DNA from: Lachnospiraceae bacterium
Lineage (GTDB): Bacteria; Bacillota; Clostridia; Lachnospirales; Lachnospiraceae
Length of the DNA: 64,000 nt
Assembly: GCA_902363835.1 (NCBI GenBank)
Contig: CABJBM010000001.1
Coordinates: 186,001 to 250,000, forward strand
Direction of reading: 5' to 3'
The position numbers and the translations under genes are program-made. This document shows positions 7,025 to 50,110 of this stretch, piece after piece. Under the pieces are notes generated by a model, which saw nothing but the letters and a program-made list of their open reading frames with translations, ran no database searches and was not told where the DNA came from. Position 1 is the first letter of the stretch. Each line of letters begins with the position of its first letter.

Positions 7025-7074
7025 ACCGGATTCCTCCTTACCGTTATTTTTTCAAAAACATTACGCATGCCCCT

Positions 7075-7103
7075 ATTATAATCTTTTTTCCAGAATTTGT
7101 AAA
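7075..7103 (-). promoter_or_regulatory. Sigma-A promoter of the XdhC/metal-uptake operon
   Basis: Read on the minus strand: TTTACA (-35), 17-bp spacer, TATAAT (-10), about 50 bp upstream of the MobA-ModE start. The match to the vegetative consensus is strong. Confidence 0.7.
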
Positions 7104-7117
7104 CCTGAGAAAAACAA

Positions 7118-7174
7118 AAAACTCCCGGATTGAAATTTAATCAAAATATCAATTAAATTTCAATCCGGGAGTTT
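7118..7174 (-). terminator. Long perfect-stem terminator after the NlpC/P60 gene
   Basis: Two 23-nt arms (7118-7140 and 7152-7174) are exact reverse complements with a short AT-rich loop. On the minus strand the stem is followed by a T-rich run. It ends the cell-wall hydrolase transcript just before the metal operon promoter. Confidence 0.9.
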
Positions 7175-7179
7175 CTAAA

Positions 7180-8799: not shown

Positions 8800-8993
8800 C
8801 CTGTACTTTCTCTCCATCTTCCTGTATTCTAGCGGAAAGCCGATTCAGACTATGAGCCTATTTGTCTAAGTATAGCATAAAATGTCACATATTGCGATAT
8901 AAGACCTGCAAAAAATTATTAAGATTATGTTACAAACCTTTAAAAAAGATACATCCAAAAGACATTTAATAATAAGCTTCCGGACGTTAAAGC

Positions 8994-9043
8994 AAAAAAA
9001 CAGGACCGGAAGCGCTTATAAAGGGCTCCTGGTCCCATGTTTT
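8994..9043 (-). terminator. Terminator of the TrpXYZ-like ABC operon
   Basis: On the minus strand a GGACC-GGAGC arm pairs with GCTTCCGGTCC (9003-9035, one bulge) and is followed by seven T. It lies just beyond the ATPase stop. Confidence 0.8.
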
Positions 9044-9050
9044 TCACCAG

Positions 9051-9848
9051 CTATTTTGCCAGAATCATTCTGTCATTGGAGAATTCCTCACCGCTGGCCT
9101 CTTCAAACTTCTTAAGAAGGTCTTCCACTTCCAGCTTCTTTTTTTCTTCCCCTGATACATCATAAATGATGCGGCCTTCATGCATCATCACAAGCCGGTT
9201 ACCGATCTGAATGGCATCCTTCATGTTATGTGTGATCATAAGGGTGGTGAGATTCTGCTCTTTTACAATCTCCTGGGTAATTTCCAGCACCTTTTTGGCT
9301 GTCTTTGGGTCAAGTGCTGCAGTATGTTCATCCAGCAGAAGAAGTTTTGGTTTCTTTAAAGTCGCCATCAGAAGGGTAAGGGCCTGTCTCTGGCCGCCTG
9401 AAAGAAGCCCGACCTTGTTGGTCATACGGTCCTGAAGTCCAAGTCCCAGCTTTTTAAGAGCCTCATGGTAAAATGCCTTTTCATTGGCCCTGATTCCCCA
9501 GGCAAGACCTCGTCCCTGTCCCCGGCGATAGGCCAGGGCCATATTTTCCTGTATTTCCATTCCGGCGGCAGTCCCCATCATGGGATCCTGAAACACTCTT
9601 CCAATGTACTTGGCTCTTCTATACTCCGGATCTCTGGAAATATTGATTCCGTCAATCTGGATCTTACCGGAATCAATGGGATACACTCCTGCTATCATAT
9701 TTAACATTGTGGATTTTCCCGCTCCGTTTCCGCCGATTACAGTTACAAAATCGCCTTCGTCCAGATGGAGGTCAATGCCATTCAATGCCTTTTTTTCATT
9801 GATTGTGTTCTTATTAAATGTTTTTCTGACATTCTTAATATCCAGCAC
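9051..9848 (-). CDS. ABC transporter ATPase, partner of ABC_sub_bind-type importer
   Basis: 265 residues with Walker A GGNGAGKST (~38-46), signature LSGGQRQ (~147) and Walker B LLLLDEHTAALDP (~168). It follows the permease with only 3 bp between, so the two are co-translated. This arrangement (PF04392-type lipoprotein, BPD_transp_2 permease, ATPase) is the TrpXYZ-like layout; known ligands of the class include aromatic amino acids, but the ligand here is not determined. Confidence 0.88.
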   Translation of the reverse strand: MLDIKNVRKTFNKNTINEKKALNGIDLHLDEGDFVTVIGGNGAGKSTMLNMIAGVYPIDSGKIQIDGINISRDPEYRRAKYIGRVFQDPMMGTAAGMEIQENMALAYRRGQGRGLAWGIRANEKAFYHEALKKLGLGLQDRMTNKVGLLSGGQRQALTLLMATLKKPKLLLLDEHTAALDPKTAKKVLEITQEIVKEQNLTTLMITHNMKDAIQIGNRLVMMHEGRIIYDVSGEEKKKLEVEDLLKKFEEASGEEFSNDRMILAK

Positions 9849-9851
9849 GGT

Positions 9852-10766
9852 TTATTCTCCTCCCTCTGTATAAGATTTCCTGATGCGCCATTTGTTTGCC
9901 ATGACCGGCACGCAAAGGGCCACAGCTACGATCGCAGCCGACAGCAGCTTCATATCATTGGCATCCATGCCCATTCTCAAAACAACGGCACGGATCACAA
10001 AATATATGACGGAGCCAACTACCGCAGAGGTAAGCTTGCTTCCAAAGGAGCGCAATTTTCCCATGAGCACATCACCAATGACAATAGCGGCAAGGCCGAT
10101 GACAATGGCGCCGGTACCCATACCGATATCCGCATATTTCTGGCTTTGACACACCAGCCCTCCGGAAAGTCCCACAAGCCCGTTGCTGATGGCCAGGGCC
10201 AGAAGCTTGGTCCAGTTGGTATTGACACCCTGGGCGCGGATCATGGCCTGATTATTGCCCGTAGCCCGCATGGCGCTGCCGATTTCCGTTCCAAAGAACC
10301 AGTAAAGAAGGGCAATCATGACAATTGCCACTCCAATCCCAATGGTCATGGAGGCGGCCTGTTTGCTTAACCCGGATACTGCTATAAATTTAGACATGAT
10401 TGTATCTGTCTTTAAAAGCGGCACATTGCTCTTTCCCCCCATGATCCGGAGATTAATGGACCAAAGTCCGATCTGTGTCAGGATTCCGGCCAGAATTGCC
10501 GGTATTTCAAAGATTGTATGTAACAATCCTGTTATGGATCCGGCCACTATTCCGGCTATGGCTGCAATTCCCAAGGCAATCCAGGGATCCACATGAAAAT
10601 TCAGTATCATGACGGCGCATACACAGCCGCCCATGGCAAAGCTTCCATCCACCGTCAAATCGGCAATATCCAACAGTTTATAGGTAATGTAAACCCCTAA
10701 AACCATAATCCCCCATAAAACCCCCTGAACAACTGCATCCTGAAGGGATACCAGTAAACCACTCAT
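9852..10766 (-). CDS. ABC transporter permease, BPD_transp_2 family
   Basis: 304-residue membrane protein with ~8 hydrophobic segments and typical branched-chain/nucleoside-type permease motifs (LLDIADLTVDGSFAMGG near the N-terminus, ATGNNQAMIRAQGVN in the cytoplasmic loop contacting the ATPase). It is separated from the binding-protein gene by ~250 bp full of hairpins, which may allow lower permease than binding-protein expression. Confidence 0.85.
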   Translation of the reverse strand: MSGLLVSLQDAVVQGVLWGIMVLGVYITYKLLDIADLTVDGSFAMGGCVCAVMILNFHVDPWIALGIAAIAGIVAGSITGLLHTIFEIPAILAGILTQIGLWSINLRIMGGKSNVPLLKTDTIMSKFIAVSGLSKQAASMTIGIGVAIVMIALLYWFFGTEIGSAMRATGNNQAMIRAQGVNTNWTKLLALAISNGLVGLSGGLVCQSQKYADIGMGTGAIVIGLAAIVIGDVLMGKLRSFGSKLTSAVVGSVIYFVIRAVVLRMGMDANDMKLLSAAIVAVALCVPVMANKWRIRKSYTEGGE

Positions 10767-10791
10767 GAATCATTCCTCCATGTTTTCTCAT

Positions 10792-10893
10792 TTCATATTT
10801 CTTGCCCATGTATTTTGGGCATAAAGGTATGCCCGAAAGGCGTTCATATTTCCTGCCCATGTATTCTGGGCATAAAGGTATGCCCGAAGGGCG
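10792..10893. repeat. Tandem duplication of a 51-bp hairpin unit
   Basis: Copy 1 (10792-10842) and copy 2 (10843-10893) are adjacent and differ at only a few bases; a third copy appears to begin (TTCATA at 10894). Each unit contains TGCCCA-N7-TGGGCA and the overlapping GGGCAT-N6-ATGCCC (minus strand), so the two hairpins compete. Lies in the leader of the permease gene. Confidence 0.85.
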
Positions 10894-10901
10894 TTCATAG
10901 G

Positions 10902-10992
10902 CATAAATGCCTTACATAAAAAATGAAAGCCCCATTCTTTATGTAAAGCATCTATGGCTGACAGGCGGCCCAGTCATAAGGCGCCGCCTGCC
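10902..10992 (-). other. Hairpin cascade downstream of the binding-protein gene
   Basis: Three inverted repeats follow one another after the lipoprotein stop (minus-strand order): 10992-10960 (arms differ at one base), 10946-10912 (TTACATAAA/TTTATGTAA) and a short GGCATTTATGCC. None has a good T-run, so partial termination or 3'-end protection of the upstream message fits better than full termination. Confidence 0.6.
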
Positions 10993-11019
10993 GATCATTC
11001 CATTCCTGTTTCAATCCGC

Positions 11020-12057
11020 CTATTTAAGACTGGAAACATCGATTCCAAGAGCCTTCGCTGTTTCCTCGTTAACAGTCAGTTTACACTTATCCAAGGGAAG
11101 ATATTCAATGGGCATCTTGGAAATGTCCGCACCGTCCATTAAGATCTTCACTGCCTGCTGTCCGGTTAAATAGCCCAGCTCATAATAGTCAATGCCATAT
11201 GTAGCAAGACCGCCGGCATTTACCATGCCTTCTTCTCCGCAGATCACCGGAATGCCGTTTTCATTAGCTATCATGCTTACGGTTGCCATGCCTGCGGCAA
11301 TGGTATTATCCGTAGGAGCATAGAGAGCGTCTACCTTGCCCACCATGGAGGTGACAACCGTCTGGATCTCATTGGAGTTGGATACGGTGTAATCCACTGC
11401 TGTCATGCCTTCCGCTTCAATGGCATCTCTTGCCATCTTGGCCTGGATCTCGGAGTTGGACTCTGCGGAGCAGTAAATGATTCCAACGGTTTTTGCATCA
11501 GGGAGAATCTTCTTTAACAGGGATATCTGCTCTTTCACAGGAGTCAGATCAGAGGTGCCGCTGACATTGCCTCCCGGATTCTCATTGCTTTCAACCAAAT
11601 CTGAAGATGCCGGATCAGTGACGGCTGTCAGCAGAATCGGGATATCGCTTGTGGCTCCTGCCACGGCCTGAGCTGCCGGTGTTGCAATGGCAAGGATCAA
11701 ATCATCTTTATCATTGACCAGCTTGCTGGCAATGGTCTGGCATGTAGACTGGTCGCCGGATGCATTCTGCTGGTCAACGGTGTAGTTAAGGCCTGCATCA
11801 TCAAGGGCCTGGATAAAGCCTTTGTTGGACGCATCTAAGGCTGCGTGCTGTACAAGCTGGAGAACCCCGATTTTAAACTGCTTTCCATCTGCCGTCTTTT
11901 CTGCCGTGGATTCTGCCGCTTCACTTGCCTTCTCTCCCGCAGTTGTGGTTTCCGGTGCCCCGGTTGTGGTTTCCGGCGCTTTGCTGCCGCATGCCGTTAA
12001 GGACATCATCATGGCACCGGCAAGAACCAGTGATAACACTTTTGCTGATTTCTTCAT
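11020..12057 (-). CDS. ABC_sub_bind (PF04392) substrate-binding lipoprotein, TrpX-like
   Basis: About 345 residues with a signal peptide ending in the lipobox LTAC (~25) and a Thr/Glu-rich linker. The two-lobed domain shows FKIGVLQLVQHAALD, ILLTAVTDPAS, VGIIYCSAESNS and an ending LTVNEETAKALGID typical of this family. The start MKKSAK is chosen because GGAGAG precedes it by 8 nt. It captures a small solute outside the membrane for the downstream permease/ATPase. Confidence 0.88.
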   Translation of the reverse strand: MKKSAKVLSLVLAGAMMMSLTACGSKAPETTTGAPETTTAGEKASEAAESTAEKTADGKQFKIGVLQLVQHAALDASNKGFIQALDDAGLNYTVDQQNASGDQSTCQTIASKLVNDKDDLILAIATPAAQAVAGATSDIPILLTAVTDPASSDLVESNENPGGNVSGTSDLTPVKEQISLLKKILPDAKTVGIIYCSAESNSEIQAKMARDAIEAEGMTAVDYTVSNSNEIQTVVTSMVGKVDALYAPTDNTIAAGMATVSMIANENGIPVICGEEGMVNAGGLATYGIDYYELGYLTGQQAVKILMDGADISKMPIEYLPLDKCKLTVNEETAKALGIDVSSLK

Positions 12058-12110
12058 AATCTTCTCTCCTCTTCCTTCCAAAATCTCGTCCTTTCTGGAA
12101 CTTAATTCGT

Positions 12111-12139
12111 ATCATACTACAAAAAAGACAAGCCGTCAA
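12111..12139 (-). promoter_or_regulatory. Sigma-A promoter of the TrpXYZ-like operon
   Basis: Minus strand TTGACG, 17-bp spacer, TATGAT, ~55 bp before the lipoprotein start. No T-box or riboswitch-like structure was seen in the short leader. Confidence 0.7.
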
Positions 12140-12234
12140 TTTTATTGCTTTAATTTTATATGTTTTTAAAGTGCTAAAGTACATTTTCGTCAAAATTCAC
12201 TATAAAATGATCTTATCCCCTTATTTATTCGTCA

Positions 12235-12268
12235 AAAAACCGGAGAATCTCTGTTCTCCGGTTTTTTT
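12235..12268 (-). terminator. Terminator overlapping the yitT stop codon
   Basis: AAAAACCGGAGAA and TTCTCCGGTTTTT flank a 6-nt loop. A/T tracts on both sides make it usable in both directions; it closes the YitT gene. Confidence 0.9.
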
Positions 12269-13131
12269 TAATTGGCAAGAAAGCCTTTTCCTATAATCTC
12301 ACTGGAATTGGATATGAGTATAAATGCCGTTGGTTCCACTGTGCGTATATAGTTTTTAAGCTTAAGCGCCTGGGAACGTTTCATGGTCGTTAAAATGACC
12401 GTCTTTTTATGATGGCTGAAAGCGCCCTGTGCCTCGTAAACTGTGGCGCTCCGGTTAAGCCCATGGATGATATAATCACAAATAGGTCCCGGATCATCAC
12501 AGATGATGCTGAAGCACTTGCATAGATTAATATTTTCAATAACATCGCCGATGATAAGGGATTTGGCCATTAAGCCCAGGGATGAGAATAATCCGGTCTC
12601 CGGTCCGAATACAAAGTAGGCCAGAATCACACCCGCCATATCCACCAGCAAAAGCACTGTTCCTATATTAAGGCTGGTGTACCGTTTCAGTATCATGGCA
12701 ATAATATCCGTTCCTCCGCTGGAAGCTCCGATGTTAAAAAGGATCGCAGAGCCTACGCCTGGCAACAGGATGGCAAAGATCAGTTCCAAAAGCGGTTCCG
12801 TTGTAAGGGGCCTTGTAATTGGATACAGCCGTTCCAATAAATAAAGCAATACGGACATCAGGATGGTAGCGTAAACCGTTTTAATCCCAAAGTTCCGTCC
12901 AAGAAAGAGAAAGCCAATCACCATTAATAAAGTGTTCACAATGTTTGTAAACTCACTGGCCGACCAATGGGTTAATGCACTGATAACCGATGCAAAGCCC
13001 GTGACACCTCCGAATGCAAAATTATTTGGGAATTTAAAAAAATAGATTCCTACCACCATAATCCAGATGCTGAACGTGATCAGTCCATACTCTGTAAGCG
13101 TTCTCAGTGTTTTATTTTCTATCTGCTTCAT
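12268..13131 (-). CDS. YitT family membrane protein (DUF161 + DUF2179)
   Basis: 287 residues: five or six hydrophobic segments in the N-terminal ~200 residues with PNNFAFGGVTGFASVI and GASSGGTDIIAMILKRYT motifs, then a soluble DUF2179 domain (KTVILTTMKRSQALKLKNYI). YitT proteins are common in Firmicutes; no substrate is established. Appears monocistronic. Confidence 0.87.
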   Translation of the reverse strand: MKQIENKTLRTLTEYGLITFSIWIMVVGIYFFKFPNNFAFGGVTGFASVISALTHWSASEFTNIVNTLLMVIGFLFLGRNFGIKTVYATILMSVLLYLLERLYPITRPLTTEPLLELIFAILLPGVGSAILFNIGASSGGTDIIAMILKRYTSLNIGTVLLLVDMAGVILAYFVFGPETGLFSSLGLMAKSLIIGDVIENINLCKCFSIICDDPGPICDYIIHGLNRSATVYEAQGAFSHHKKTVILTTMKRSQALKLKNYIRTVEPTAFILISNSSEIIGKGFLAN

Positions 13132-13279
13132 GACTGTTTATCTGCTCCCCTCCGGCTCCTTTTAGCCGGTTATGTACGTTTATTGAGTGAATTTAATATT
13201 TCCTTTCACTCCCATTCGACTATACCTCAAAGGGGCGGTAATTACAAACACCAATCCATCTGATATTCTCACAGTCTTT

Positions 13280-14797
13280 CTATTGTGAGCAGGGGGTAAA
13301 TCCCACACTGGCAAGGAACCGTCCAAACCCGTTCCGTCCCTGTTCGTCACATTTGTAAACGCCTGAATCCTCCAGCACCCGCTCAAATACCAGGCCAACT
13401 TCCTTCTTTAAAATATCCTCCACGTTTTCCTTTGTCACTTCATGGTATTTTCCAAGAAAAGCCTCCGCCCAGTCCGCGTGCTTCTCAATGGTTTTGTCAT
13501 CCCTGATATTTTTTCCTTCTGCAATGCATTGGGCCAGCAGATTAAGCTCTTCTTTCAGTCTGGAAGGCAGGACTGCCAATCCCATGACCTCAATTAAGCC
13601 GATATTCTCTTTTTTGATGTGATGAAGCTCTTGATGAGGGTGGTAAACACCAAGCGGAAATTCTTTTGTGGTGATATTGTTTCTTAAGACCAGATCCAGT
13701 TCATATACTCCATCCCGCATTCTGGCAATGGGAGTGATGGTATTATGAGGCTCTCCGTCAGTTTCCGCAAAGAGAAAGAGCTCCTCATCCGTATAAGCTC
13801 TCCAGGCATTGAGAACCTTTGTTCCAAGATTGATTAAGTCCTCCGGGTTTTTGCTTCTGGTACGGAGCACAGACATGGGCCACTTCACGATCCCGGCTTC
13901 CACGGAGTCAAAGCCTTTTATACGGAAGCAAGCCTCCATGGGAGCCTTTGCCATGGCAAAATCATAATTTCCTCCCTGGAAATGGTCATGAGAAAGGATG
14001 GAACCTCCCACAATAGGCAGATCCGCATTGGAGCCAAGAAAATAATGGGGAAACAGCTTGACAAAATCAAACAATTTTACAAAGGTATCTCTCTCTATTT
14101 TCATGGGGATATGCTGTCCGTTAAAAACAATGCAATGTTCATTATAATAAACATAGGGAGAATACTGAAACCCCCATTGGCTGTTGTTGATCTCAAGACG
14201 GATGACCCTGTGGTTATTTCTGGCAGGGTGGTTGGCTCTTCCTGCATAGCCTTCATTCTCCATACAAAGCTGGCATTTTGGATAACCGCTTTGCTTTGCA
14301 AGCTTGGCCGCTGCAATGGCCTTGGGATCTTTCTCAGGCTTTGACAGGTTTACCGTAATGTCCAGATCTCCGTATTTGGTAGGGGTCACCCAACGCATGT
14401 CCTTTTTGATCCGGTACCTTCTGATATAATCGGAATCCTGGCTCAGTTTATAATAATATCCGGTTGCAGCCTGAGGCGACTGGCACTGATACAGCTCCCA
14501 GAACGTTTTTTCTATTTCGCTGGGTCTTGGCATCAGGCAATTCATCAGCTTTGCATCAAACAGATCCCGGTATGTAACACTGTCTTCCTCTATGATTCCG
14601 GTCTGGCAGGCGTAATCAAGCAATTCCTGCAAAACAGCTTCCAACTCTATTTCCCCGCATTCTCTTATCCCTTCCTCATACTCGTCCATCATCATCACGT
14701 CGAGGATCTGGTTAAGGGCATAAAACCGGTCCGTTTCCTGGATCAAGCCTGTGTTTAGTCCGTACTGCACCAGTTTCTTAATTGCCTCATAAATCAT
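13280..14797 (-). CDS. galT: Class II (Gram-positive type) galactose-1-phosphate uridylyltransferase
   Basis: 505 residues, the usual length of the Firmicute GalT type rather than the ~350-residue E. coli type. Diagnostic segments are NNHRVIRLEINNSQWGFQYS, GGSILSHDHFQGGNY (His-rich nucleotidyl-transfer region) and GVYHPHQELHHIKKENIG. It exchanges UMP between UDP-glucose and galactose-1-phosphate in the Leloir pathway. galK and galE are not adjacent. Ribosome site GGAGGG lies ~9 nt before the ATG. Confidence 0.93.
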   Translation of the reverse strand: MIYEAIKKLVQYGLNTGLIQETDRFYALNQILDVMMMDEYEEGIRECGEIELEAVLQELLDYACQTGIIEEDSVTYRDLFDAKLMNCLMPRPSEIEKTFWELYQCQSPQAATGYYYKLSQDSDYIRRYRIKKDMRWVTPTKYGDLDITVNLSKPEKDPKAIAAAKLAKQSGYPKCQLCMENEGYAGRANHPARNNHRVIRLEINNSQWGFQYSPYVYYNEHCIVFNGQHIPMKIERDTFVKLFDFVKLFPHYFLGSNADLPIVGGSILSHDHFQGGNYDFAMAKAPMEACFRIKGFDSVEAGIVKWPMSVLRTRSKNPEDLINLGTKVLNAWRAYTDEELFLFAETDGEPHNTITPIARMRDGVYELDLVLRNNITTKEFPLGVYHPHQELHHIKKENIGLIEVMGLAVLPSRLKEELNLLAQCIAEGKNIRDDKTIEKHADWAEAFLGKYHEVTKENVEDILKKEVGLVFERVLEDSGVYKCDEQGRNGFGRFLASVGFTPCSQ

Positions 14798-41768: not shown

Positions 41769-42134
41769 CTATATACTGTTTTTTTTAAGTTCATCTCTCA
41801 GCCGCTCCAGGGCTTTTTTTTCCAGCCGTGATACATAAGATCTGGATATGCCCATTACATCCGCGATCTCCCTTTGAGTATATTCCTTTCCACCATGAAG
41901 TCCGTACCTCATTCCGATGATGGTTTTTTCATTATCCTTTAAACAGCTGTCAAAGGCTTCATACAGCTCCTTAATATCCTGTTTTAAAATAATCGTTTCC
42001 AGTGTCTCTTTATTTTCCATTTCAATGACATCTACAAGGCTCACGGTCTCCCCATCCTTGTCTACGCCGATCGGTTCAAACAGAGAAACTTCTTTTGAAT
42101 ATTTTTTATTTGCGCGAAGAAGCATTAGGATTTC
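41769..42134 (-). CDS. sigK: Sporulation sigma factor K, C-terminal part (split by skin-like element)
   Basis: 121 codons starting EILMLLRANKK, covering the end of region 2, region 3 and region 4 (HTH with EYTQREIADVMGISRSYVSRLE). It matches SigK from the usual ENEILM point onward. No promoter or ribosome site precedes it; the frame only continues into the element as 44 unrelated codons. The N-terminal half lies ~7.7 kb away at 49844-50110 in the same orientation. Joining at the shared AATG restores the frame. Not a decayed gene: both halves are intact. Confidence 0.9.
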   Translation of the reverse strand, partial: EILMLLRANKKYSKEVSLFEPIGVDKDGETVSLVDVIEMENKETLETIILKQDIKELYEAFDSCLKDNEKTIIGMRYGLHGGKEYTQREIADVMGISRSYVSRLEKKALERLRDELKKNSI

Positions 42135-42137
42135 ATT
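42126..42137 (-). repeat. att-like core, C-terminal sigK border
   Basis: Minus strand AATGAAATCCTA. The copy at the other border reads AATGGTATCCTA, so 10 of 12 positions agree, in direct orientation. The recombinase stop TGA lies inside this site. Joining at AATG gives ...VEN-EILM..., the sequence expected of SigK. The B. subtilis skin element also recombines at an AATGA core. Confidence 0.75.
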
Positions 42138-43818
42138 TGCTAGAGTCACCTTGCGGCTTTGGCGGTTTAGGATCCTCTGAACCAAACAGGTACAGATGGA
42201 CATTCTCTCCATCCCATATGACCTTATCCACAAAGGTTCGGACCGCCGCCCGCTTTTGCCGGACATCCATAAGGTCTACCACATTCCGAAAGGAGGATAA
42301 GGTCTGCTTTAAGAGCTGAAACTCCGGGCCAGTAAGCTCACTGCTCCCGGCGGCCTGAGAAAGGGTCAATATCTGCTGATTTATTTCTTCCCTTCTTTTA
42401 TGCAGGTCATCTATCTGCTTTATAATGTATCCCTCCGCCCCGGTTCCCCCGGCTTTTCCAAGGGAAGCTACCAATCCGGCAATTTCCCCTTCCATATTCT
42501 TAAGCTCCTCATTTAAACGGGATATATCCCATTCCAGCTCCTGGCCGCTGTCTTTTACCGCCTTTTTACTTCTGCTTAGCTGAGTTTGAAATTCATCATA
42601 ATCTTCCGATATTCTTCTGATTTCCTCCAGAACCATCTGATCCAGCATATTTCCGTTTACATTCTTCATCTTACAGCATTTCATACGGCTCTTTTCCTTC
42701 ATAGTACATAAATATGAATAAATCTGTTCCCCCTGGTCATTGTACCGCGGGGACAGTTTTGGACGCATGTAATCACCGCAGCAGCCGCAAAAGAGGATTC
42801 CGGACAGCAGGGCCACATTGCTGCGGGGCTTCCTGTAATTTTTTGATTTGTTTTGATCCAGCAGACGCTGAACTCTGACCCACATGGAACCTGAAACCAC
42901 TCCTTCATGCTTTCCCACGGCTACGATCCACTCCTCCATATCCTTTATTTCGTGGGTTTTTCCAGCCTTTTGAAGGGTGCGGTTATATGCTATCACCCCA
43001 TGGCTTCCGTTAAAAGCTTCTTTTTCTGCGAACAAATCCACCTTTTTTTCCAGCAGATATTCATAGGCCTCCTGGTCTGCTGCCATGTAAACCGGATTGG
43101 TCAATATCCCCTTTATGGCAAAGCGGCTGAACTGGCGGCCGTATTTTGTCTTATGACCGTTTTGAATTAGATAGGTTTCTGTCTGGGTCAATGATCCTGT
43201 TTCTAAAAACTTCTCGAAAATCAGCCTGACAAGCTTTGCCTCTTCCTGAATCAGCTTAAGCTTAAAGGCCTTTTTCATCTTGCCGTCAATGGTCACGGAG
43301 GACACGCTTTCCGATGTGTAGCCTGTAGGGGTATTCCCTCCCAGCCATCTTCCGCTTTTGGAAAGCTCAAGCATATTATCCCGGATGCGCTCCGCTATGG
43401 TCTCTCTCTCCAGCTGGGAAAAAACAGAAGCAATGTACATCATGGCCCGCCCCATGGGAGAAGAGGTATCAAACTGCTCTTTTATAGAAATAAAGGAAAT
43501 ATGAAGCTCGTTAAGCTCTTCAATAAGATTTGCAAAATCTCCGATATTACGGCTGATACGGTCCAGCCGGTAGCATACCACCGCTGTAAACCTCTTTTTT
43601 TTTGCCTCCTGCATCATGGCTTTAAACTGGGGCCGTTCAAGGTTTCCTCCGGAAAATCCCTCATCCTCATATACCCAGGCGCTGTCAGCAAAACTCTCTC
43701 CATAATGTGCGGAAATGTATTGTCTGCACAGCTCGATCTGATTGCCGATGCTCTCTCCCTTTCCGGTAAATTTTGACTTTCTTGAATAAATCGCAAACAA
43801 TTCTTTCCCGGCTTCCAC
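42133..43818 (-). CDS. spoIVCA: Large serine recombinase (SpoIVCA-like), sigK element excisase/integrase
   Basis: About 561 residues: resolvase domain with catalytic Ser in IYSRKS (~12) and CYRLDRISRN, recombinase domain (~165-270), Zn ribbon (GILFCGCCGDYM ... MKCC) and a C-terminal coiled coil (~440-500) required for synapsis control in this family. The GTG start at 43818 is chosen because GGAGG lies 9 nt upstream and the resolvase fold begins a few residues later; upstream in-frame ATGs lack ribosome sites. The stop codon is part of the recombination core. By position it should catalyse excision that restores sigK. Confidence 0.9.
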   Translation of the reverse strand: MEAGKELFAIYSRKSKFTGKGESIGNQIELCRQYISAHYGESFADSAWVYEDEGFSGGNLERPQFKAMMQEAKKKRFTAVVCYRLDRISRNIGDFANLIEELNELHISFISIKEQFDTSSPMGRAMMYIASVFSQLERETIAERIRDNMLELSKSGRWLGGNTPTGYTSESVSSVTIDGKMKKAFKLKLIQEEAKLVRLIFEKFLETGSLTQTETYLIQNGHKTKYGRQFSRFAIKGILTNPVYMAADQEAYEYLLEKKVDLFAEKEAFNGSHGVIAYNRTLQKAGKTHEIKDMEEWIVAVGKHEGVVSGSMWVRVQRLLDQNKSKNYRKPRSNVALLSGILFCGCCGDYMRPKLSPRYNDQGEQIYSYLCTMKEKSRMKCCKMKNVNGNMLDQMVLEEIRRISEDYDEFQTQLSRSKKAVKDSGQELEWDISRLNEELKNMEGEIAGLVASLGKAGGTGAEGYIIKQIDDLHKRREEINQQILTLSQAAGSSELTGPEFQLLKQTLSSFRNVVDLMDVRQKRAAVRTFVDKVIWDGENVHLYLFGSEDPKPPKPQGDSSK

Positions 43819-43915
43819 CCAAACCTTCCTCCTTATTACGATAAAACTCTGACTTCTGACTTTCTGCCCGTGTTTTTTACAGATCCCGCCATGACCATAC
43901 CCTTTATTCCCAAAC

Positions 43916-43943
43916 ATACGGGACATGGGCGACATCATACATT
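43916..43943 (+). promoter_or_regulatory. Candidate sigma-E promoter inside the element
   Basis: ATA (43916-43918), 17-bp spacer, CATACATT (43936-43943) agrees with the mother-cell sigma-E pattern ATA-N16-18-CATACAnT. It points to the small + strand gene. Found by eye; short motifs like this occur by chance. Confidence 0.4.
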
Positions 43944-43972
43944 ATAACAAGAGTAAATATCAGGTCCATGCA

Positions 43973-44134
43973 ATGAATATGATCGTACATCATCCACAAA
44001 CCAAAGAGGATAGGGAGGAATTAAAAAGAAAAGCCGCCATCCTCCATAGCCAGGCTGTCCTTCAATATGTACAGCAGCTTTCCTGCTCCAATGATCAAAA
44101 ACAAGCTCTTATGGAAGCGCTTCACACAATCTGA
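43973..44134 (+). CDS. Small uncharacterised protein of the sigK element (53 aa)
   Basis: 53 residues beginning MNMIVHHPQT, followed by a predicted helix rich in Lys/Glu (REELKRKAAILHSQAVLQYV) and QKQALMEALHTI at the end. It resembles small helical proteins found beside recombinases in Lachnospiraceae mobile elements, from memory only. The ribosome site is weak (CAGGT). An in-frame ATG 16 codons upstream exists. The gene is divergent from the recombinase and its 3' end overlaps the hydrogenase large-subunit 3' end by 13 nt. A candidate sigma-E promoter lies upstream. Function unknown. Confidence 0.6.
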   Translation: MNMIVHHPQTKEDREELKRKAAILHSQAVLQYVQQLSCSNDQKQALMEALHTI

Positions 44135-45498
44135 ATGGAATTCCTAAGCTTTCCGCCGGAAAAAACATGGGTGGCACAGGATACGCAAGGGTCAAAGGAC
44201 CGTATGATCCTGCCGATTTCCACTGGTGCTTCCACATTGTTTACAGGCGTTCCTATAAGAGCCTGTTCTCCGGTTCCCTTCATCCCGTTTGATTGAGTTG
44301 ACAGATTCCATGCCGACGGCGTTATGATCTGGTAGAAAGCAATTTCCCTGTTTTCAATATACAGCCAGTGGCCAAGGGCTCCTCTTGTAGTGTCCACCAG
44401 CCCGGCCCCTGATGATTGTACAGGAATCTCATATTCCTGCTGCATGGGTACATCCGGAATCAAATTGGCTATAAGTATTTGCATAATTTCTACAATTTTC
44501 TTAGCTTCCAGCGCTCTTGCAATGGTCCGGTCCATGGCAGAGATCCCATTCCTATATTCGCCGGACAGCCACTGCCTTGCAAGCGGTCCTACCTCATAGG
44601 GAAGATTGTCGTATCTGGGCGCTTTTACCCAGGAATAGGCCTGAGGCTTATTCTTATCAGGTTCATCATTTTCATTGAACCATGCATATTCATCTTCCTG
44701 GGTTATGAGAGCCGGATCAAAGGGGGATATACTGTCTTTTGAGAATGCAAGCGGATCCACATAGAGAGTTCCCAAATCCTCATAATTATTAAAACACCCA
44801 TAACTTAATAAATTTCCATAACCTCCGCCCATATGATAGTACTCCGGATAATAAGTTCCAATGGTATATACATCAGGAACCATTTTTTCCACGACAAACT
44901 GCCCTATTCCATATAAAATGGATTTTATGCTGATAATCTTATCTGCAGAAATGGGCGATGTAATTCCCCCGATAAATACCCCATGGTTATGAGGAGCCTT
45001 TCCGCCCAGTATGGCCAGCATCTGATGGGCATTACGGCTGAATTCAAGGGATTCAAAATAATCCTTAACCATTTTATCGTTTATGTCCTTTGGAAGCCTG
45101 AAATCATCATGCTCCCTTTTAAACAGCGGATAATCTTCCGGAAGCTTTACGTAGTCAGGAAGGGTAAACTGATAAAAATGCCTTAAATGATTTTGCAGAA
45201 ACTCACATGCATGAAGCAGATCCCTAAGATACCTGCCCTGCTCAGAAGGAACAATGTTCAATGCTTCTTCCAGGGCAAGGGCTGAGGCCATGGAATGTGC
45301 GGTGGAACAAATCCCGCAGATCCGCTGCGTAAAATAAACAGCGTCAAAAGGGCTTCTTCCCTGGAGCATTTTTTCAAATCCCCGGAACATCATGCCTTTT
45401 GTTTTTGCATCCACAATGGACTGTTTATCAATATCAGCTTCAATTTCCATATAACCATTGATACGGGTAATAGGATTTATGGTTATTTTCTCTGCCAT
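44122..45498 (-). CDS. [NiFe]-hydrogenase large (catalytic) subunit
   Basis: 458 residues with both nickel-binding motifs intact: L1 RICGICSTAH (~60-69) and L2 DPCVSCATH (~437-445). A 14-residue C-terminal extension beginning VFSGGK follows the His, the part normally removed by a maturation protease after nickel insertion; such a protease is encoded at the head of this operon. No signal or membrane segment. Sequence type looks nearest to group 1-like uptake enzymes, but the subgroup needs phylogeny. Two bp after the small subunit. Confidence 0.92.
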   Translation of the reverse strand: MAEKITINPITRINGYMEIEADIDKQSIVDAKTKGMMFRGFEKMLQGRSPFDAVYFTQRICGICSTAHSMASALALEEALNIVPSEQGRYLRDLLHACEFLQNHLRHFYQFTLPDYVKLPEDYPLFKREHDDFRLPKDINDKMVKDYFESLEFSRNAHQMLAILGGKAPHNHGVFIGGITSPISADKIISIKSILYGIGQFVVEKMVPDVYTIGTYYPEYYHMGGGYGNLLSYGCFNNYEDLGTLYVDPLAFSKDSISPFDPALITQEDEYAWFNENDEPDKNKPQAYSWVKAPRYDNLPYEVGPLARQWLSGEYRNGISAMDRTIARALEAKKIVEIMQILIANLIPDVPMQQEYEIPVQSSGAGLVDTTRGALGHWLYIENREIAFYQIITPSAWNLSTQSNGMKGTGEQALIGTPVNNVEAPVEIGRIIRSFDPCVSCATHVFSGGKLRNSIQIV

Positions 45499-45500
45499 GT

Positions 45501-46403
45501 CTACTCCTCTCTCATGGTGTGGTAGGTGATAAACGGCTCCATTGCATCAGGGAACCCGAACTGGGCACAGCCAATGCAGGGAGAATCATCTCCTATGGGC
45601 CAGTTGACATGGCCGTTCCACTGGCGTATGGGGCAGTCGATCTGGGTAACCGGTCCCTTGCATCCCATCAGGAACATACAGGTTTCTTCCCCAAGCTTTG
45701 TGGCAAAGATGCCATTGTCATAATAGGATCTCCTTGGACACCTGTCGTGAATGGTGGTACTGTAAAACATCAGGGGGCGGTCCCCGCTGTCAAGAGGTGG
45801 TTCCCCGTATAATATCAGATAAGCCAGAGTGCCCATGAACCAGTCGGGATGACAGGGACAGCCTGTCAGTTTGATCACTTTCCGGCCTAAAACATCCTGA
45901 ATTCCCACACATTGGGTGGGGTTTGGCCTTGCTGCGGACACGCCCCCGTGTGAAGCACAGGCCCCCACAGCGATTACATGGGCAGCACGTTCTCCCAGCC
46001 TTTTGACAGCTTCCAATCCTGTAATCTCCCTGCCATTGCTCCGGCCCACGGTCTGGTAGGAACCGTTATCCTTTAAGGAGACCGCTCCTTCCGCAGCCAG
46101 AATATAATTACTGCCGATTATGCCAAACAGCTGGTCCATTGCCTCATTTCCTTCGGAAGCAATCAGGCTGTTGCTGTATATGAAATTGGTCATTTGAGTC
46201 AGCAGATACTGGAAATCCGGGTTCTGGCCGTTAAGAAGAGAGATGGTATTGCCGGTGCATCCGTTTAATTCAAGCCAGACCAGATTCTGCTTTTGGCGTA
46301 CAGAATTGGCGATATCGTTCTTTACCCTGTTTACAAGGGTTTCCGTTGTTTTTAATCTGCTTTCCTGGTATGGGCATTTAAAGTTTATTGAATCCAAATT
46401 CAT
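45501..46403 (-). CDS. [NiFe]-hydrogenase small (Fe-S) subunit, no Tat signal
   Basis: About 300 residues. Cluster ligands are visible: proximal ELNGCTGNT, GACASHGG and TGCPCHPDW; distal/medial IHDRCPRRSYYDNG, FLMGCKGP and SPCIGCAQFGF. The N-terminus has no RRxFxK Tat motif and there is no C-terminal anchor, so the enzyme should be cytoplasmic, unusual for a group 1-like small subunit. ATG at 46403 used; GTG one codon earlier is possible. Confidence 0.92.
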   Translation of the reverse strand: MNLDSINFKCPYQESRLKTTETLVNRVKNDIANSVRQKQNLVWLELNGCTGNTISLLNGQNPDFQYLLTQMTNFIYSNSLIASEGNEAMDQLFGIIGSNYILAAEGAVSLKDNGSYQTVGRSNGREITGLEAVKRLGERAAHVIAVGACASHGGVSAARPNPTQCVGIQDVLGRKVIKLTGCPCHPDWFMGTLAYLILYGEPPLDSGDRPLMFYSTTIHDRCPRRSYYDNGIFATKLGEETCMFLMGCKGPVTQIDCPIRQWNGHVNWPIGDDSPCIGCAQFGFPDAMEPFITYHTMREE

Positions 46404-46411
46404 CACCAGCT

Positions 46412-46888
46412 TTACGCATAGACCAGATAGCCTACCACCGGTAATCTGGTTAAGACCATTGCTCCAGGATGGCAGGTCTGAAACTCACTTGTTAAATCAT
46501 TTCCAGGATTAAGACCAAAATGGCTGTCTCCCTTCCAGACAGAATTATTTGTAACATCATATACCACTCCATTTACCGCAACGTAAGCAGGAGCTCCATT
46601 CTTTCCGTTATATCCGGATAACTCCTCCAGAGTAAAGTATCTTGGGGGAGTGGCCTCCTCCTGGTTTTGGCTTGCATGGATAGGCTGGTAGGGATTTTCT
46701 ATCTCTTCCATGCTTAAATGGTTGGTTTGGCTGAAATATTTGATGTGGCTTTCCAGCATGATCACTTCACCGTTTAAATGATCCAATACTGCGCTGTTAT
46801 CATTCTCATTGGAATAGAGCTTTTCCACATCCTCGTTTATCTGCTTCACACAGTTCCCGATATAATCCAAAAACAGATTTAATTCCAT
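46412..46888 (-). CDS. Cytochrome b5-like heme-binding domain protein in hydrogenase operon
   Basis: 158 residues: an N-terminal helical/acidic region (~1-70) and a C-terminal cytochrome b5/MAPR-like domain (~83-155): YFTLEELSGYNGKNGAPAYV, AVNGVVYDVTNNSVWKGD and a His in FQTCHPGAMVL. It lacks a signal peptide or TM. Its place directly before the small subunit (8 bp) suggests an electron-transfer partner where most group 1 operons have a membrane cytochrome b. Heme binding is inferred; the classic HPGG pair is only partly present. Confidence 0.8.
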   Translation of the reverse strand: MELNLFLDYIGNCVKQINEDVEKLYSNENDNSAVLDHLNGEVIMLESHIKYFSQTNHLSMEEIENPYQPIHASQNQEEATPPRYFTLEELSGYNGKNGAPAYVAVNGVVYDVTNNSVWKGDSHFGLNPGNDLTSEFQTCHPGAMVLTRLPVVGYLVYA

Positions 46889-46950
46889 AAAAACCTCCTA
46901 AATAAAAATGCATAATCATTGATATGGTTTGACGGCCAAAAGGGCCTGCT

Positions 46951-47208
46951 TCATTGGAATTTCTCACCCTCAATCCTGTCTATGATTGCAGTAAGGGGCT
47001 CCATTTCCTGTTTGTGTACCAGAATGTTTGTCCAGTCGCCAATAAGGGCATTTTTTCTTTCAGAAAAATATTCCCGGATGCTGTTTTCACTTATATGGCT
47101 GTTTGTATGTACTGTAATTGTCAGGTTTAAAATCCTGGCAATGGCGTTTTCTCTGCATAAATCAATGATTGACTCATATAGATTTTGATTTAAGAAAGTG
47201 TCGTGCAT
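46951..47208 (-). CDS. HypA-like nickel-insertion protein lacking the zinc domain
   Basis: 85 residues starting MHDTFLNQNLYESII, which matches the nickel-binding N-terminus (Met-His) of HypA/HybF. The first domain (LNLTITVHTNSHISENSIREYF) follows, but the CxxC...CxxC zinc domain is absent and the protein is ~30 residues shorter than HypA. The start is fixed by GGGAGGAAG 6 nt upstream; it overlaps the protease gene by 35 nt. May be a dedicated nickel delivery or chaperone variant. Confidence 0.65.
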   Translation of the reverse strand: MHDTFLNQNLYESIIDLCRENAIARILNLTITVHTNSHISENSIREYFSERKNALIGDWTNILVHKQEMEPLTAIIDRIEGEKFQ

Positions 47209-47662
47209 GATTGGCTTCCTCCCATATGATTTTTTGAATGATGTTTTCAATTTCCCTGCAGATTTGGGGCAGCTTATCCATTAAAACAGGGCTGAGCTCG
47301 CAGCCAAGACCGATCTCGGAAACTTCAATGCCAATGAGATAGCCTTTAAACTGGATGCCGTACAGCTTCATGAGTTCCACCATACTTAAATCATGGGGCA
47401 TGGAGAACAAGGAAGGCTGTGACATCACATCTTCAAGGCGGAACAAATGGACCTTTCCAGGCTCTGCCCTTGGGGAAAGTGCGTCAAGTATAAAAACAAA
47501 GTCATCCTTCTCCAGTAAATAAAAACAGTTTTGAAAATCAGTTTCACCAATGATTACATGAACATCCTGGCGGTTTAATCGGTCCTCCAGCATTTCGGCA
47601 GCTTGAATTGCTATAGCGTCATCCTTCATAAACCGGTTGCCAATAGCAACTAACTTCACCAT
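47174..47662 (-). CDS. Hydrogenase maturation protease (HyaD/HybD, M52)
   Basis: 162 residues: LVAIGNRFMKDDAIAI start with the metal-binding acidic residue, VFILDALSPRAEPG with the second Asp and SMPHDLSM with the His, i.e. the nickel-sensing triad of M52 peptidases. It removes the C-terminal tail of the large subunit in this operon. First gene of the operon, with AAAGGAGG before the ATG. HypB-F are not in the window. Confidence 0.88.
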   Translation of the reverse strand: MVKLVAIGNRFMKDDAIAIQAAEMLEDRLNRQDVHVIIGETDFQNCFYLLEKDDFVFILDALSPRAEPGKVHLFRLEDVMSQPSLFSMPHDLSMVELMKLYGIQFKGYLIGIEVSEIGLGCELSPVLMDKLPQICREIENIIQKIIWEEANHARHFLKSKSI

Positions 47663-48013
47663 AACCTTGCCTCCTTTTCTAAATTTGCTATTTATCAATA
47701 TATATGTTGGACATAATCAAATATTCTTTGCTGGGGGAATATTGCAGGAGAGACTGCAGCAACCCTGATTTACATAGAATAAATAAGGATGATTTTCCCA
47801 AAACTTTTATGCATTACTCATATAAACCCGCCTAAACTTTTGCACTACTTGCACATATTTTTGCAATTTTTCAAAAAATTCAAGCTTGCACCCTTATTGA
47901 TTTGAGGATATACTGGAGGCTGAATCAGCCATTGGACTGGTTTTACCGGTAATTTTATAAACATTGGTAACCATACTTTCAGGCTGGACAAAATAATGAT
48001 TTGGGGGCTTATC
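47663..48013. promoter_or_regulatory. Divergent spacer between hydrogenase operon and chemoreceptor
   Basis: About 350 bp with no gene. On + a TTGGAC-N17-TTATAA promoter candidate (47932-47960) precedes the chemoreceptor. TTGCA occurs four times (47840, 47849, 47861, 47886) and an imperfect palindrome TTGCAGGAG-AGA-CTGCAGCAA lies at 47743-47763, possible regulator sites. No convincing promoter was found for the hydrogenase operon. Confidence 0.45.
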
Positions 48014-49756
48014 ATGAAAGTTTCTTTTATATCAAAATTATCTTTCCGGAAAAATATCAGGGTAAAAATTACAGTATTTTTTCTTGCAATGGTAATATCC
48101 ATTGCTGCGGCACTGGCATATATCTTATACCTGCAAAGCTATAAGATGATAACCAGCAGGGCTGCCGAAGACGCCTTCCGGACAGTATCCCAATCCGGCA
48201 AATATCTTGATATGGAGAAGTTTAAAGCATTAACATCCATTGAGGATGAGAACACGGCCTATTATATTCAGGAAAGAGACAACCTGGCAAAAATAAGGGA
48301 GATCAGCGGAGCCAGGTATATTTTCACCATGAGGAAAACCAATGAAGGGAAATTCATGTATGTAATCGACGGCTCTCCTGCTGAGGATATTTCACATATT
48401 GGAGAAACAGAAGAATCAGCCCCCTCCTATGAACAGGCCTGGAGCGGCATTCCTTATATTGACAGCAGGTTAAATGTTGTTGAGGGCTGGGGCATATTTA
48501 TAAGTTCCTATTACCCGCTAAAGGACAGCCAGGGCAATGTTGCCGGAATTATCGGCGCGGATTTTGATGCAAAAAACATCTATCAGGAGCTTAACCGCTT
48601 TAAGAAAATCAGTCTCCTGGTCCTTCTGGCATTTACGGCAATTATTGTTGTATCAGGCCTGATTTTTTCCGGCAAAATATCACGTTCCGTCAAGTGTGCT
48701 TCCGATTACTCGAAAAAACTGGCTGATTTTAACCTGACAAGGGATATTTCCAGGAAAGAATTACGTAAAAAGGATGAATTCGGGATCTTAGCCAATTCGC
48801 TGGAAAGCATCCGGGATAATTTTAAAAATATCATCCAAAAAATCAACGCTTCTTCCAGGCAGGTAGCCATTACCTCCCAGCAGCTTACGGCTGCTTCTTC
48901 CCAATCTGCCAGAACCGGGGAAGAGGTATCAAATGCAATCCGGGAAATTGCAGAAAGAGCCTTAGAACAAACAGAAAATACTATGGAGGGTACTTCTAAG
49001 ATCATACAGTTAGGCCGTATCATTGACAACAACCTGAAGGCTGCCAACCACATAAACAGTGCAATTACAAACGTCACAGAGGCCATTGACAGCGGATTTG
49101 GGGAAATGGAAAGCCTGTATAAGATCACAGAAGAAAGCAACTGCGCCAATGAGAAAATATATGATTTGATAATAAAGACAAATGACAGTTCCAAAAAAAT
49201 CAGTGCAGCAAGCAGCCTGATCTCTTCCATCGCACTCCAAACCAGGCTTTTGGCTTTAAACGCCTCTGTAGAGGCTGCCAGAGCAGGCCAGGCGGGAAAA
49301 GGATTTTCCGTGGTGGCAGGGGAAATAAAAAAGCTGGCCGCCCTATCGGCTGATTCCTCAAAAAGTATTGAAGAAATTGTTTCAGAACTTCAGAAAAATG
49401 CCGCCAATGCCGTGGATATTATGGACAGAATAAAGAATATCACAGCAGAGCAAACCCAGCGTGTTGACAGCAGCAGAGAAAATTACAGATTGATCAACCA
49501 GGCAATGGAGGAATCCCAAAAGGCTTCCCTGCACTTAAGCAGTACTGGAAGGGAAATGTATGATATGAAAAACATGATACTGGCTTTGCTGGAGAATTTA
49601 TCCCACATTGCTAAACAAAATTCCTCTGCGGCCGGAGAGGTCAACCGGTCCATGGAGGAAGAATCTGATGCTTTGGAAGAGATTGCAGCCTCCAGCGACA
49701 TCCTGTCCGGGCTGGCTGAAGAGCTGCATGATATGATCCTGGAATTTAAAATATAA
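48014..49756 (+). CDS. Methyl-accepting chemotaxis-type receptor in the sigK element
   Basis: About 580 residues from MKVSFI (GGGGG 7 nt upstream): TM1 (~18-40), extracellular Cache-like sensor (~41-190) with [16 protein letters not shown] and [23 protein letters not shown] (split here: [18 protein letters not shown]), TM2 (~200-220), HAMP and a long coiled coil with the signalling tip [19 protein letters not shown]. Signals to CheA/CheW, which are not in the window. Divergent from the hydrogenase operon. Its ligand is unknown. Confidence 0.88.
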
Positions 49757-49762
49757 CATAAG

Positions 49763-49803
49763 GAACCGGTCCGCACCTGACTGTTACAGGCATGGGCCGG
49801 TTC
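49763..49803 (+). terminator. Hairpin after the chemoreceptor gene
   Basis: GAACCGG and CCGGTTC arms with an inner CCTG/CAGG stem; the T-run is weak (TTCTCCCCT). It lies at the element's N-terminal border and may stop transcription into antisense of sigK. Confidence 0.6.
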
Positions 49804-49828
49804 TCCCCTATTCAAAGGTTTGGAGCCG

Positions 49829-50110
49829 TTATGATAGGATACCATTCTCCACACATTTGGCCGCATAAGTGGCCAGTCTGGAGCCTCGATCCGGATGAAA
49901 GGTATTAACGGCTTTAATAAGTCCTATGGTTCCTACGGAAAGAAGATCTTCCATATCATAATCCGTATTCTGATACTTTTTTGCCACATGTGCCACCAGG
50001 CGCATATTCCGCTCGATGAGTGTGGCTCTCGCCTCCCGATCCCCTTCCTGGTATCGTTCCAGACACTCTCGTTCTTCTCGCGCAGTTAAAGGTTTGGGAA
50101 AAGTCTTCAA
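49829..50110 (-). CDS. sigK: Sporulation sigma factor K, N-terminal part (split by skin-like element)
   Basis: 93 codons, of which the first 89 (to VEN) are sigK; GILS and the stop come from the element. Covers region 2.1-2.4 (RNMRLVAHVAKKY, MEDLLSVGTIGLIKAV, LATYAAKCVEN). The start is TTG at 50110 with AAGGTGG 6 nt upstream. An in-frame stop lies 8 codons further up with no other start between, so there is no pro-sequence of the B. subtilis kind (~20 residues), as in C. difficile. Joined to 41769-42134 it gives 210 residues. Confidence 0.9.
   Translation of the reverse strand: MKTFPKPLTAREERECLERYQEGDREARATLIERNMRLVAHVAKKYQNTDYDMEDLLSVGTIGLIKAVNTFHPDRGSRLATYAAKCVENGILS
49835..49846 (-). repeat. 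att-like core, N-terminal sigK border
   Basis: Minus strand AATGGTATCCTA, direct repeat of AATGAAATCCTA at 42126-42137. Only AATG and ATCCTA are shared. Crossover in AATG yields Glu (ENEILM), crossover in ATCCTA would yield Gly (ENGILM); the conserved SigK sequence favours AATG. Confidence 0.75.

Follow-up and report, generated by a model that had tools for sequence, protein, structure and literature searches.

A sigK-splitting, probably skin-type element with a [NiFe]-hydrogenase operon as cargo in Lacrimispora-related Lachnospiraceae

In Bacillus subtilis, the skin element (skin(Bs), spoIVCA) interrupts sigK and a serine recombinase rebuilds the gene in the mother cell; the element is prophage-like and sigma-K carries a pro-sequence (available part of PMC5025042). 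In Clostridioides difficile, sigK is likewise split by an element, skin(Cd), with a large serine recombinase, and sigma-K is made without a pro-sequence; the 72-aa protein CD1234 depends on sigma-E and SpoIIID, and CD1231 and CD1234 are both necessary and sufficient in E. coli (same part of that paper). Here we describe a 7,709-bp element (positions 42134-49842, measured from AATG copy to AATG copy) that splits sigK in 64,000 nucleotides of a Lachnospiraceae bacterium (GenBank assembly GCA_902363835.1, contig CABJBM010000001.1, positions 186,001 to 250,000), a stretch referred to below as the window and which we infer to group with the genus Lacrimispora. As in skin(Bs), sigK is interrupted next to a serine recombinase gene, and as in skin(Cd) the recombinase is a large one and the pro-sequence is missing; unlike skin(Bs), the element has no recognised phage genes other than the recombinase. 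We consider it quite probable that this is a small, non-phage sigK-intervening (skin-type) element that would be excised in the manner of skin(Cd) and whose cargo, a [NiFe]-hydrogenase operon, would be expressed under sigma-E in the mother cell.

Both sigK halves are located on the minus strand, open and collinear on either side of the element, which bears out the initial annotation of intact halves 7.7 kb apart. The N-terminal half (49829..50110, minus strand) has a TTG start preceded by the ribosome-binding site AAGGTGG, a conserved upstream region and no pro-sequence, and the C-terminal half (41769..42137, minus strand) has an intact region 4. The SigK model matches the N half from position 24 and the C half from position 109, and joining the two yields a SigK of 210 aa, which scores above the NCBIfam SigK subfamily cut-off (293 vs 252 bits) and narrowly below that of the equivalog model (291.2 vs 298.65). 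The joined protein lacks the model's first 24 positions, which correspond to the pro-sequence region, so that excision would be the main switch for a sigma-K of this kind.

The matching borders reported by the initial annotation are also found. The attachment (att) core AATGGTATCCTA at the junction of the sigK N half and the element (attR, 49835..49846, minus strand) is followed inward by the element arm TATCATAACGGCT, and the core AATGAAATCCTA at the junction with the C half (attL, 42126..42137, minus strand) is preceded by the element arm AGCCGCAAGGTGACTCTAGC. Among loci with both ends, the N side follows the pattern AATG-nn-AT(C/A)CT(A/G) and then a CGGCT arm (TGGCT in L046, CGGCC in L056), and the C side follows AATG-A(A/G)-ATCCT after an AGCCG arm (AGCCA in L054 and L058); with CGGCT and AGCCG at its two ends, the joined element would form an inverted repeat. 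The codon following the shared AAT is always Glu on the C side (GAA/GAG) and is GGT, GAT, GCT, GAA or GAG on the N side, and the C-side version alone consistently gives the canonical ENEILM. Because the Glu codon is invariant on the C side only, the crossover should fall within the shared AATG, with selection acting on the rebuilt gene. We take the insertion point to be the same Asn-Glu codon pair as in skin(Bs). Element length ranges from 2,654 to 11,508 bp among the 20 sequences with both ends.

The C half is interrupted a second time in some relatives. In L052 (G004, 6470-13474) it is cut in region 4 after residue 101 and its remainder lies about 7 kb further on, past a polysaccharide deacetylase-like gene and three serine recombinases (Pfam), an arrangement that recalls the gin element and in which sigK would need two excisions. 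In L047, L048 and L056 the C half is also cut in region 4 after residue 101, and the remainder was not found in the stretch read.

To place the locus among relatives, a scan with the hydrogenase large subunit yielded 8 loci, three of which had the same recombinase and a sigK half (L001 of Lacrimispora celerecrescens 152B, L002 of a Lacrimispora metagenome-assembled genome (MAG) and L004 of a MAG placed in the same genus). Across the 25 genomes of the L. celerecrescens genus, the same recombinase was present in 22 (67-87% identity) and was flanked by both sigK halves on one contig in 19; one or both element sides end at contig edges in G002, G004, G009, G014 and G022, and G017 (3.1 Mb) gave no sigK match. 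The G002 contig (L059) was considered as a rebuilt sigK and rejected, since it begins inside the recombinase and is thus an attL contig. Misassembly, a possibility raised in the initial annotation, is very unlikely given the same arrangement on one contig in 19 of the 25 genomes, several of these contigs being multi-megabase.

In all 19 genomes tested, no intact SigK was found at E <= 1e-25 and SigK is present as two halves only; the search otherwise matched a SigE-like protein (45%) and, more weakly, four further proteins (38-41%). In G010, G028 and G029, the C half ends at residue 191. The split thus appears fixed in the genus. Of 120 sampled genomes of the family, 82 matched SigK at E <= 1e-30 and 38 gave no match, and unbroken SigK (match from residues 1-3 to 202-209, 50-89% identity) was present in at least 68 family genomes. 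The closest intact SigK among the matches listed from these 120 genomes (89%) is that of G076, which provides an empty site with the same gene order, purP-purH-sigK-licT-ptsG, and an unbroken VENEILM.

We then compared mean ratios of nonsynonymous to synonymous substitution rates (dN/dS) using eight sequences of clade A and the 25-28 pairs among them whose dS exceeded 0.05, obtaining 0.018 for sigK, 0.065 for the flanking purH, 0.087 for the recombinase and 0.17 for a 53-aa open reading frame (ORF) described below, as well as 0.072 for the hydrogenase large-subunit gene hydB, 0.085 for the small-subunit gene hydA, 0.127 for a cytochrome b5 gene and 0.169 for the maturation protease. The very strong purifying selection on the sigK halves argues that the gene is rebuilt. 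A dead element, with sigK staying split and the species sporulating without sigma-K or not at all, would fit a recombinase that looks frameshifted in one species (G030) and the renewed cutting of the C half in region 4 in some species; we consider it extremely unlikely in view of the strong purifying selection on both sigK halves, the recombinase and the 53-aa ORF and of the conservation of the att sites and promoter blocks.

The recombinase (42133..43818, minus strand) was recognised as a large serine recombinase by the initial annotation, in agreement with its Pfam Resolvase, Recombinase and Zn_ribbon domains; translation likely begins at a GTG at 43818 after AAGGAGG, and a longer ORF from 43938 was rejected as the probable start since it is not conserved. 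Among the matches listed, its top phage relative has 39.7% identity (Terrisporobacter phage) and its top plasmid relative 51% (Ruminococcus albus replicon). A PHROGs scan of 8 element proteins gave a match of known function for the recombinase only, with hydB, hydA and the chemoreceptor matching PHROGs of unknown function. The recombinase is therefore the only recognised phage-type gene of the element, and no sign was found among these proteins of the phage origin that is usual, though not defining, for skin. In L058 (G030), the recombinase matches as two pieces with a stop, reflecting either decay or a sequence error.

On the strand opposite to the recombinase lies the 53-aa ORF (43973..44134, plus strand), a candidate recombination directionality factor (RDF), or excision factor, which is predicted to form a helical hairpin (AlphaFold model, mean predicted local distance difference test score (pLDDT) 87). 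All 23 sequences contain it, as do 6 related Lachnospiraceae elements, and three Lachnospiraceae orthologs measure 72-74 aa. Its family has 755 members at E <= 0.01, with no functional name in the best 120 of the 755, and a search with one family protein found no relative among 50,697 phage records. Together with the recombinase and the cytochrome b5-domain protein, it makes up the constant part of the element.

Upstream of this ORF we identified a promoter-like block (43914..43943, plus strand; ACATAC-GGGACA-...-CATACATT) combining a sigma-E-type -10 with a SpoIIID-like GGACA. In the window, the mechanical start of a 69-aa ORF (43925-43972) overlaps this conserved block, and the real start is probably the ATG at 43973. 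The pattern ACATA(C/G)-n-GGACA-N9..11-CATA(C/T) is found once in each of the 23 sequences, 58-61 bp upstream of the start, with no other match on either strand of those sequences. A looser version, ATA-nn-GGACA-N9..13-CATA, occurs at the same place in 4 of the 6 distant Lachnospiraceae elements (L084, L088, L089 and L093) and nowhere else in the 204,599 bp searched. The available part of PMC5025042 describes for skin(Cd) a comparably small, RDF-sized ORF with a sigma-E/SpoIIID-type promoter.

Another promoter-like block, of sigma-E type, precedes the cargo operon (47701..47726, minus strand); it reads GAATATT-N13-CATATA with a SpoIIID-like TATGTCC in the spacer. Searching for [GT][ACT]ATA[AT]T-N13-CATATA in 467,833 bp yielded 22 matches. 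Of these, 20 lie immediately before the first cargo gene, with a single match in each locus, the window among them, and the remaining 2 represent one homologous antisense place in L042 and L044; other spacings (6-12 and 14-23) gave 0-3 matches each. Within the window, allowing at most one mismatch gave two matches (one exact) against 0.26 expected, and 3 of 100 shuffles had two. The motif is present in all 18 hydrogenase-bearing elements and in 2 of the 5 without hydrogenase, and its spacers vary by clade (e.g. TGATTATGTCCAA, CCCATGTCTTTTT, TCGCAATAAAGCT, CAGGTCTGTTTTT, AACGGGACCTTAT). The spacer of clade A contains TNTGTCC, the reverse of GGACA, and those of three species (L042, L043 and L044) fully fit what we take to be the SpoIIID consensus, WWRRACARNY.

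For calibration, [GT]AATA[AT]T-N13-CATAT was found at spoIVA in 12 of 12 of the same genomes (CATATA in 11) and CATACTT-N13-CATAAGT at spoIIID in 12 of 12; that both would be sigma-E genes here is carried over by analogy from B. subtilis and C. difficile. The cargo promoter has ATA-N15-CATATA, compared with ATA-N16-CATATATA for C. difficile spoIIID (available part of PMC3789822). Since repressing SpoIIID sites of B. subtilis generally overlap RNA polymerase sites (available part of PMC517825), repression of the cargo by SpoIIID is possible, and we claim no sign for its effect. As all 18 hydrogenase-bearing elements have this sigma-E-type promoter, we predict that the hydrogenase is produced not by vegetative cells but by the mother cell, ahead of excision. 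The initial annotation had supposed that, if the element is excised, the mother cell loses the hydrogenase late in sporulation and spores keep it, which is probably the wrong way round.

From the sigK C half outward, the element encodes the recombinase, the 53-aa ORF, the hydrogenase large and small subunits, the cytochrome b5 protein, a HypA-like protein, the maturation protease and a chemoreceptor, and the recombinase, both subunits, the protease, the cytochrome b5 domain and the chemoreceptor were confirmed using Pfam and NCBIfam. The large subunit (44122..45498, minus strand; PF00374) has the motifs RICGIC and DPCVSCATH, and its top solved relatives are NiFeSe hydrogenases; the small subunit (45501..46406, minus strand) matches PF01058 and PF14720; and the protease (47174..47662, minus strand; PF01750) is HycI/HyaD-like. 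The two CxxC nickel motifs, the maturation protease and the small subunit with iron-sulfur domains are those of a group 1-like [NiFe] hydrogenase. A twin-arginine signal on the small subunit is a feature of periplasmic group 1 hydrogenases; this motif is not present at the N terminus here, so the enzyme should be cytoplasmic. The cytochrome b5-domain protein (46412..46888, minus strand) is the one cargo gene present in all 22 related loci, and in its AlphaFold model (mean pLDDT 74) the heme domain is preceded by two long helices at the N terminus; that H2 uptake might pass through this protein is a guess. In L044 (G026), hydB has one in-frame TGA and in L054 (G012) hydA matches as three pieces, each a case of decay or sequence error.

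The description of the cargo as a full hydrogenase operon holds for the subunits, the protease and the cytochrome b5 protein, and less so for its completeness. No hypB-F genes were seen among the ORFs of the window's element, so the hydrogenase set is not complete in itself; such genes are present elsewhere in the relatives G001 and G028. The small protein without a zinc ribbon (46951..47208, minus strand) matches Pfam HypA only under the cut-off (E 0.013, residues 1-53), and its HypA-like label is weak. HypD was found in 21 of the 25 genus genomes and within the element in G024 only. In G001 it belongs to an Ech-like cluster that also has hypABFCE-like genes, and the same holds for G028, a genome without hydB; the two hyp-containing clusters are alike and both were missed by the hydB search. 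We also rejected the idea that these genomes have no other NiFe hydrogenase, since a Complex1_49kDa/NiFe-type large subunit (Ech-like) is encoded elsewhere in G001. The chemoreceptor (47996..49756, plus strand, likely ATG at 48014) is open in the window, where the initial annotation correctly identified it as cargo; it is a variable passenger, found as broken or reduced fragments in 3 of the 22 related loci (L039, L042 and L044) and not in the other 19. In the L045 element, genes for HypF, HypC, HypD and a HypE-like protein separate the HypA-like gene from the cytochrome b5 gene, and an alpha-galactosidase-like gene is also present (Pfam). An alpha-galactosidase-like gene (Melibiase_2) adjoins the sigK N half inside the elements of L045 (2283-3593) and L053 (4266-6520, oriented), accompanied in L053 by an AraC-type regulator.

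In one Lacrimispora clade (L046, L049-L053 and L058), the helical and heme domains of the cytochrome b5 protein are joined by a long (GPTGGIT)n linker rich in Gly, Pro and Thr. We rejected a collagen-like linker, the repeat period being 7, and a herpesvirus glycoprotein domain, which was a low-complexity match just under the cut-off. By its composition, the linker presumably resembles spore surface proteins, and together with the sigma-E-type promoter and the lack of a twin-arginine motif it could suggest that the mother cell makes both the hydrogenase and the cytochrome b5 protein and deposits them on the forespore surface, giving the spore a hydrogenase shell although the genes are removed from the producer cell. 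The period of 7 rather than the 3 of collagen counts against such a shell, no coat-localising domain was recognised and a soluble cytoplasmic role fits equally, making it very unlikely in our view.

Searching relatives for hydrogenase genes between sigK halves, as the initial annotation advised, we found hydB in single copy in 17 of the 25 genus genomes, always beside this recombinase; the eight genomes without it include G009 and G022, whose elements are cut by contig ends, and G017, which has no element. Elements without hydrogenase keep the cytochrome b5 gene, the smallest (2.65 kb; L055 and L057) consisting of recombinase, 53-aa ORF and cytochrome b5. Trees of purH, hydB and the recombinase (15 sequences) have 10 of 12 splits common to each pair, and the unshared splits of the first tree in each pair never have support above 0.9. 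The agreement suggests that the element and its hydrogenase are inherited vertically with the chromosome. Both sides of the tree include hydrogenase-bearing elements, and we therefore read its absence from five elements as loss.

Beyond the genus, 14 of 397 sampled family genomes had the recombinase at E <= 1e-145, 2 of them Lacrimispora. Of the 12 others, six (L084, L086, L088, L089, L092 and L093) have both sigK-like halves and the small ORF, L085, L087 and L090 have the C half only, and L083, L091 and L094 have neither half in the stretch examined; the sigma halves of L087-L090 are only 52-59% identical and may belong to a distant sigK or to another sigma gene. Cargo varies, comprising a two-component system, an AAA/DUF4143 ATPase, a phosphotransferase system (PTS) with a GH1 glycosidase and, by eye, lipoprotein-like genes, and no hydrogenase subunit was found in the examined stretches of these 12 elements. 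In L089 (3458-11445), a PTS gene, a GH1 glycosidase and a LicT-like ORF lie between the sigma-factor halves. A similar hydrogenase was present in 17 non-Lacrimispora genomes, the large subunits of the nearest five being 72-74% identical. Cytochrome b5-NiFe hydrogenase operons of Anaerotignum and related genomes have a gene set similar to the element cargo, and in Anaerotignum L005, outside sigK, the genes are ordered as in L045, the largest skin element (read from sequences); these operons have no sigK beside them in the stretches read and lack the strict sigma-E-type promoter. Of 15 hydrogenase loci outside sigK (L003 and L168 being cut before the operon start), none had the strict 13-nt motif, and a looser pattern (12-14 nt, plus strand) gave three matches, downstream of hydB in L008 and L166 and near the operon start in L173 (14 nt).

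These observations bear on whether the hydrogenase is ordinary vegetative cargo of an excised element, kept in a well-maintained site, the sigma-E-like promoter being incidental or one of several. Housekeeping-type cargo in elements of the same family (sugar PTS with glycosidase, two-component system, alpha-galactosidase-like gene) and similar operons outside sigK without that promoter speak for it; we nevertheless consider it unlikely, because the motif is present in every hydrogenase-bearing element with a constant 13-nt spacing while spacer sequences differ, and because no further conserved block was seen by eye upstream of the operon in clade A.

We therefore favour excision with sigma-E-driven cargo. 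In growing cells and in the forespore, the element would stay in place and sigK would remain broken. In the mother cell, sigma-E with SpoIIID would turn on the 53-aa excision factor, which would act together with the serine recombinase on attL and attR. Crossover in the AATG common to both would free the element as a 7.7-kb circle and restore sigK (VEN-EILM), after which sigma-K would take over. The cargo operon (protease, HypA-like protein, cytochrome b5 protein and NiFe hydrogenase) would be driven by its own sigma-E-type promoter, so that the mother cell would produce a cytoplasmic hydrogenase while sigma-E is active. The skin-like part of this reading is strongly supported, because of the empty site in G076, the lack of an intact sigK in 19 of 19 genomes, the selection, the att pattern and the candidate excision factor with its sporulation-type promoter.

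Several points weigh against the reading as a whole. That the element is excised, in which cell and when, what the 53-aa ORF does and that the hydrogenase is expressed are all deduced from sequence. Both promoter patterns were written after the alignments were seen, so their presence in the loci is partly by construction and the informative part is their absence elsewhere and their fixed spacing. The 20 cargo matches amount to about five sequence contexts, the species being related; three elements without hydrogenase (L047, L048 and L056) lack the strict cargo promoter, and the distant elements L086 and L092 lack the excision-factor block. The SpoIIID-like sites are short, and the 53-aa ORF is likened to CD1234 by size and promoter type.

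If the reading is correct, elements that split sigK are not always decaying prophages; they can be phage-free and passed on stably, with a metabolic operon that is under selection and tied into the mother-cell programme. A broader proposal, which we consider about as likely as not, is that skin elements can be developmental expression cassettes whose sigma-E cargo would be transcribed in the excising cell, a mother-cell hydrogenase and cytochrome b5 module having been captured by, and timed with, the sigK switch, with tiny non-phage kin of varied cargo recurring across Lachnospiraceae. Very small pairs of recombinase and excision factor could also serve as DNA switches.

Among the open-licence PubMed Central papers listed by our searches, which give no proof of absence, none dealt with a sigK element containing hydrogenase genes or with Lacrimispora sigK, in line with the initial annotation, which knew of no such cargo. 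That annotation had also described known sigK-intervening elements as phage-like, an incomplete picture in view of the gin element in gerE of Bacillus cereus ATCC 10987, which has no phage genes and is excised during sporulation by a serine recombinase with an extra factor; gin differs from the present element by its size (28.6 kb), its three recombinases, its target gene and its mostly unknown cargo (available part of PMC5595907). Compared with skin(Cd), which has 19 genes, the elements described here (2.7-11.5 kb) carry a metabolic operon with its own sigma-E-type promoter. Late hydrogenase expression has been described in other sporulating anaerobes, C. acetobutylicum mbhSL being expressed through stationary phase (available part of PMC2530871) and the C. 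beijerinckii NiFe cluster being highest at T4-T5 (available part of PMC6362236). CD3258 of C. difficile is, like the one predicted here, a hydrogenase under sigma-E; it is lowered by SpoIIID, is listed as an iron and not a [NiFe] hydrogenase and is not described within an excisable element in the available part of PMC3789822. Alongside CD3258, mbhSL and the C. beijerinckii cluster, the present element would offer a natural way to test why hydrogenases are expressed late in sporulating anaerobes.

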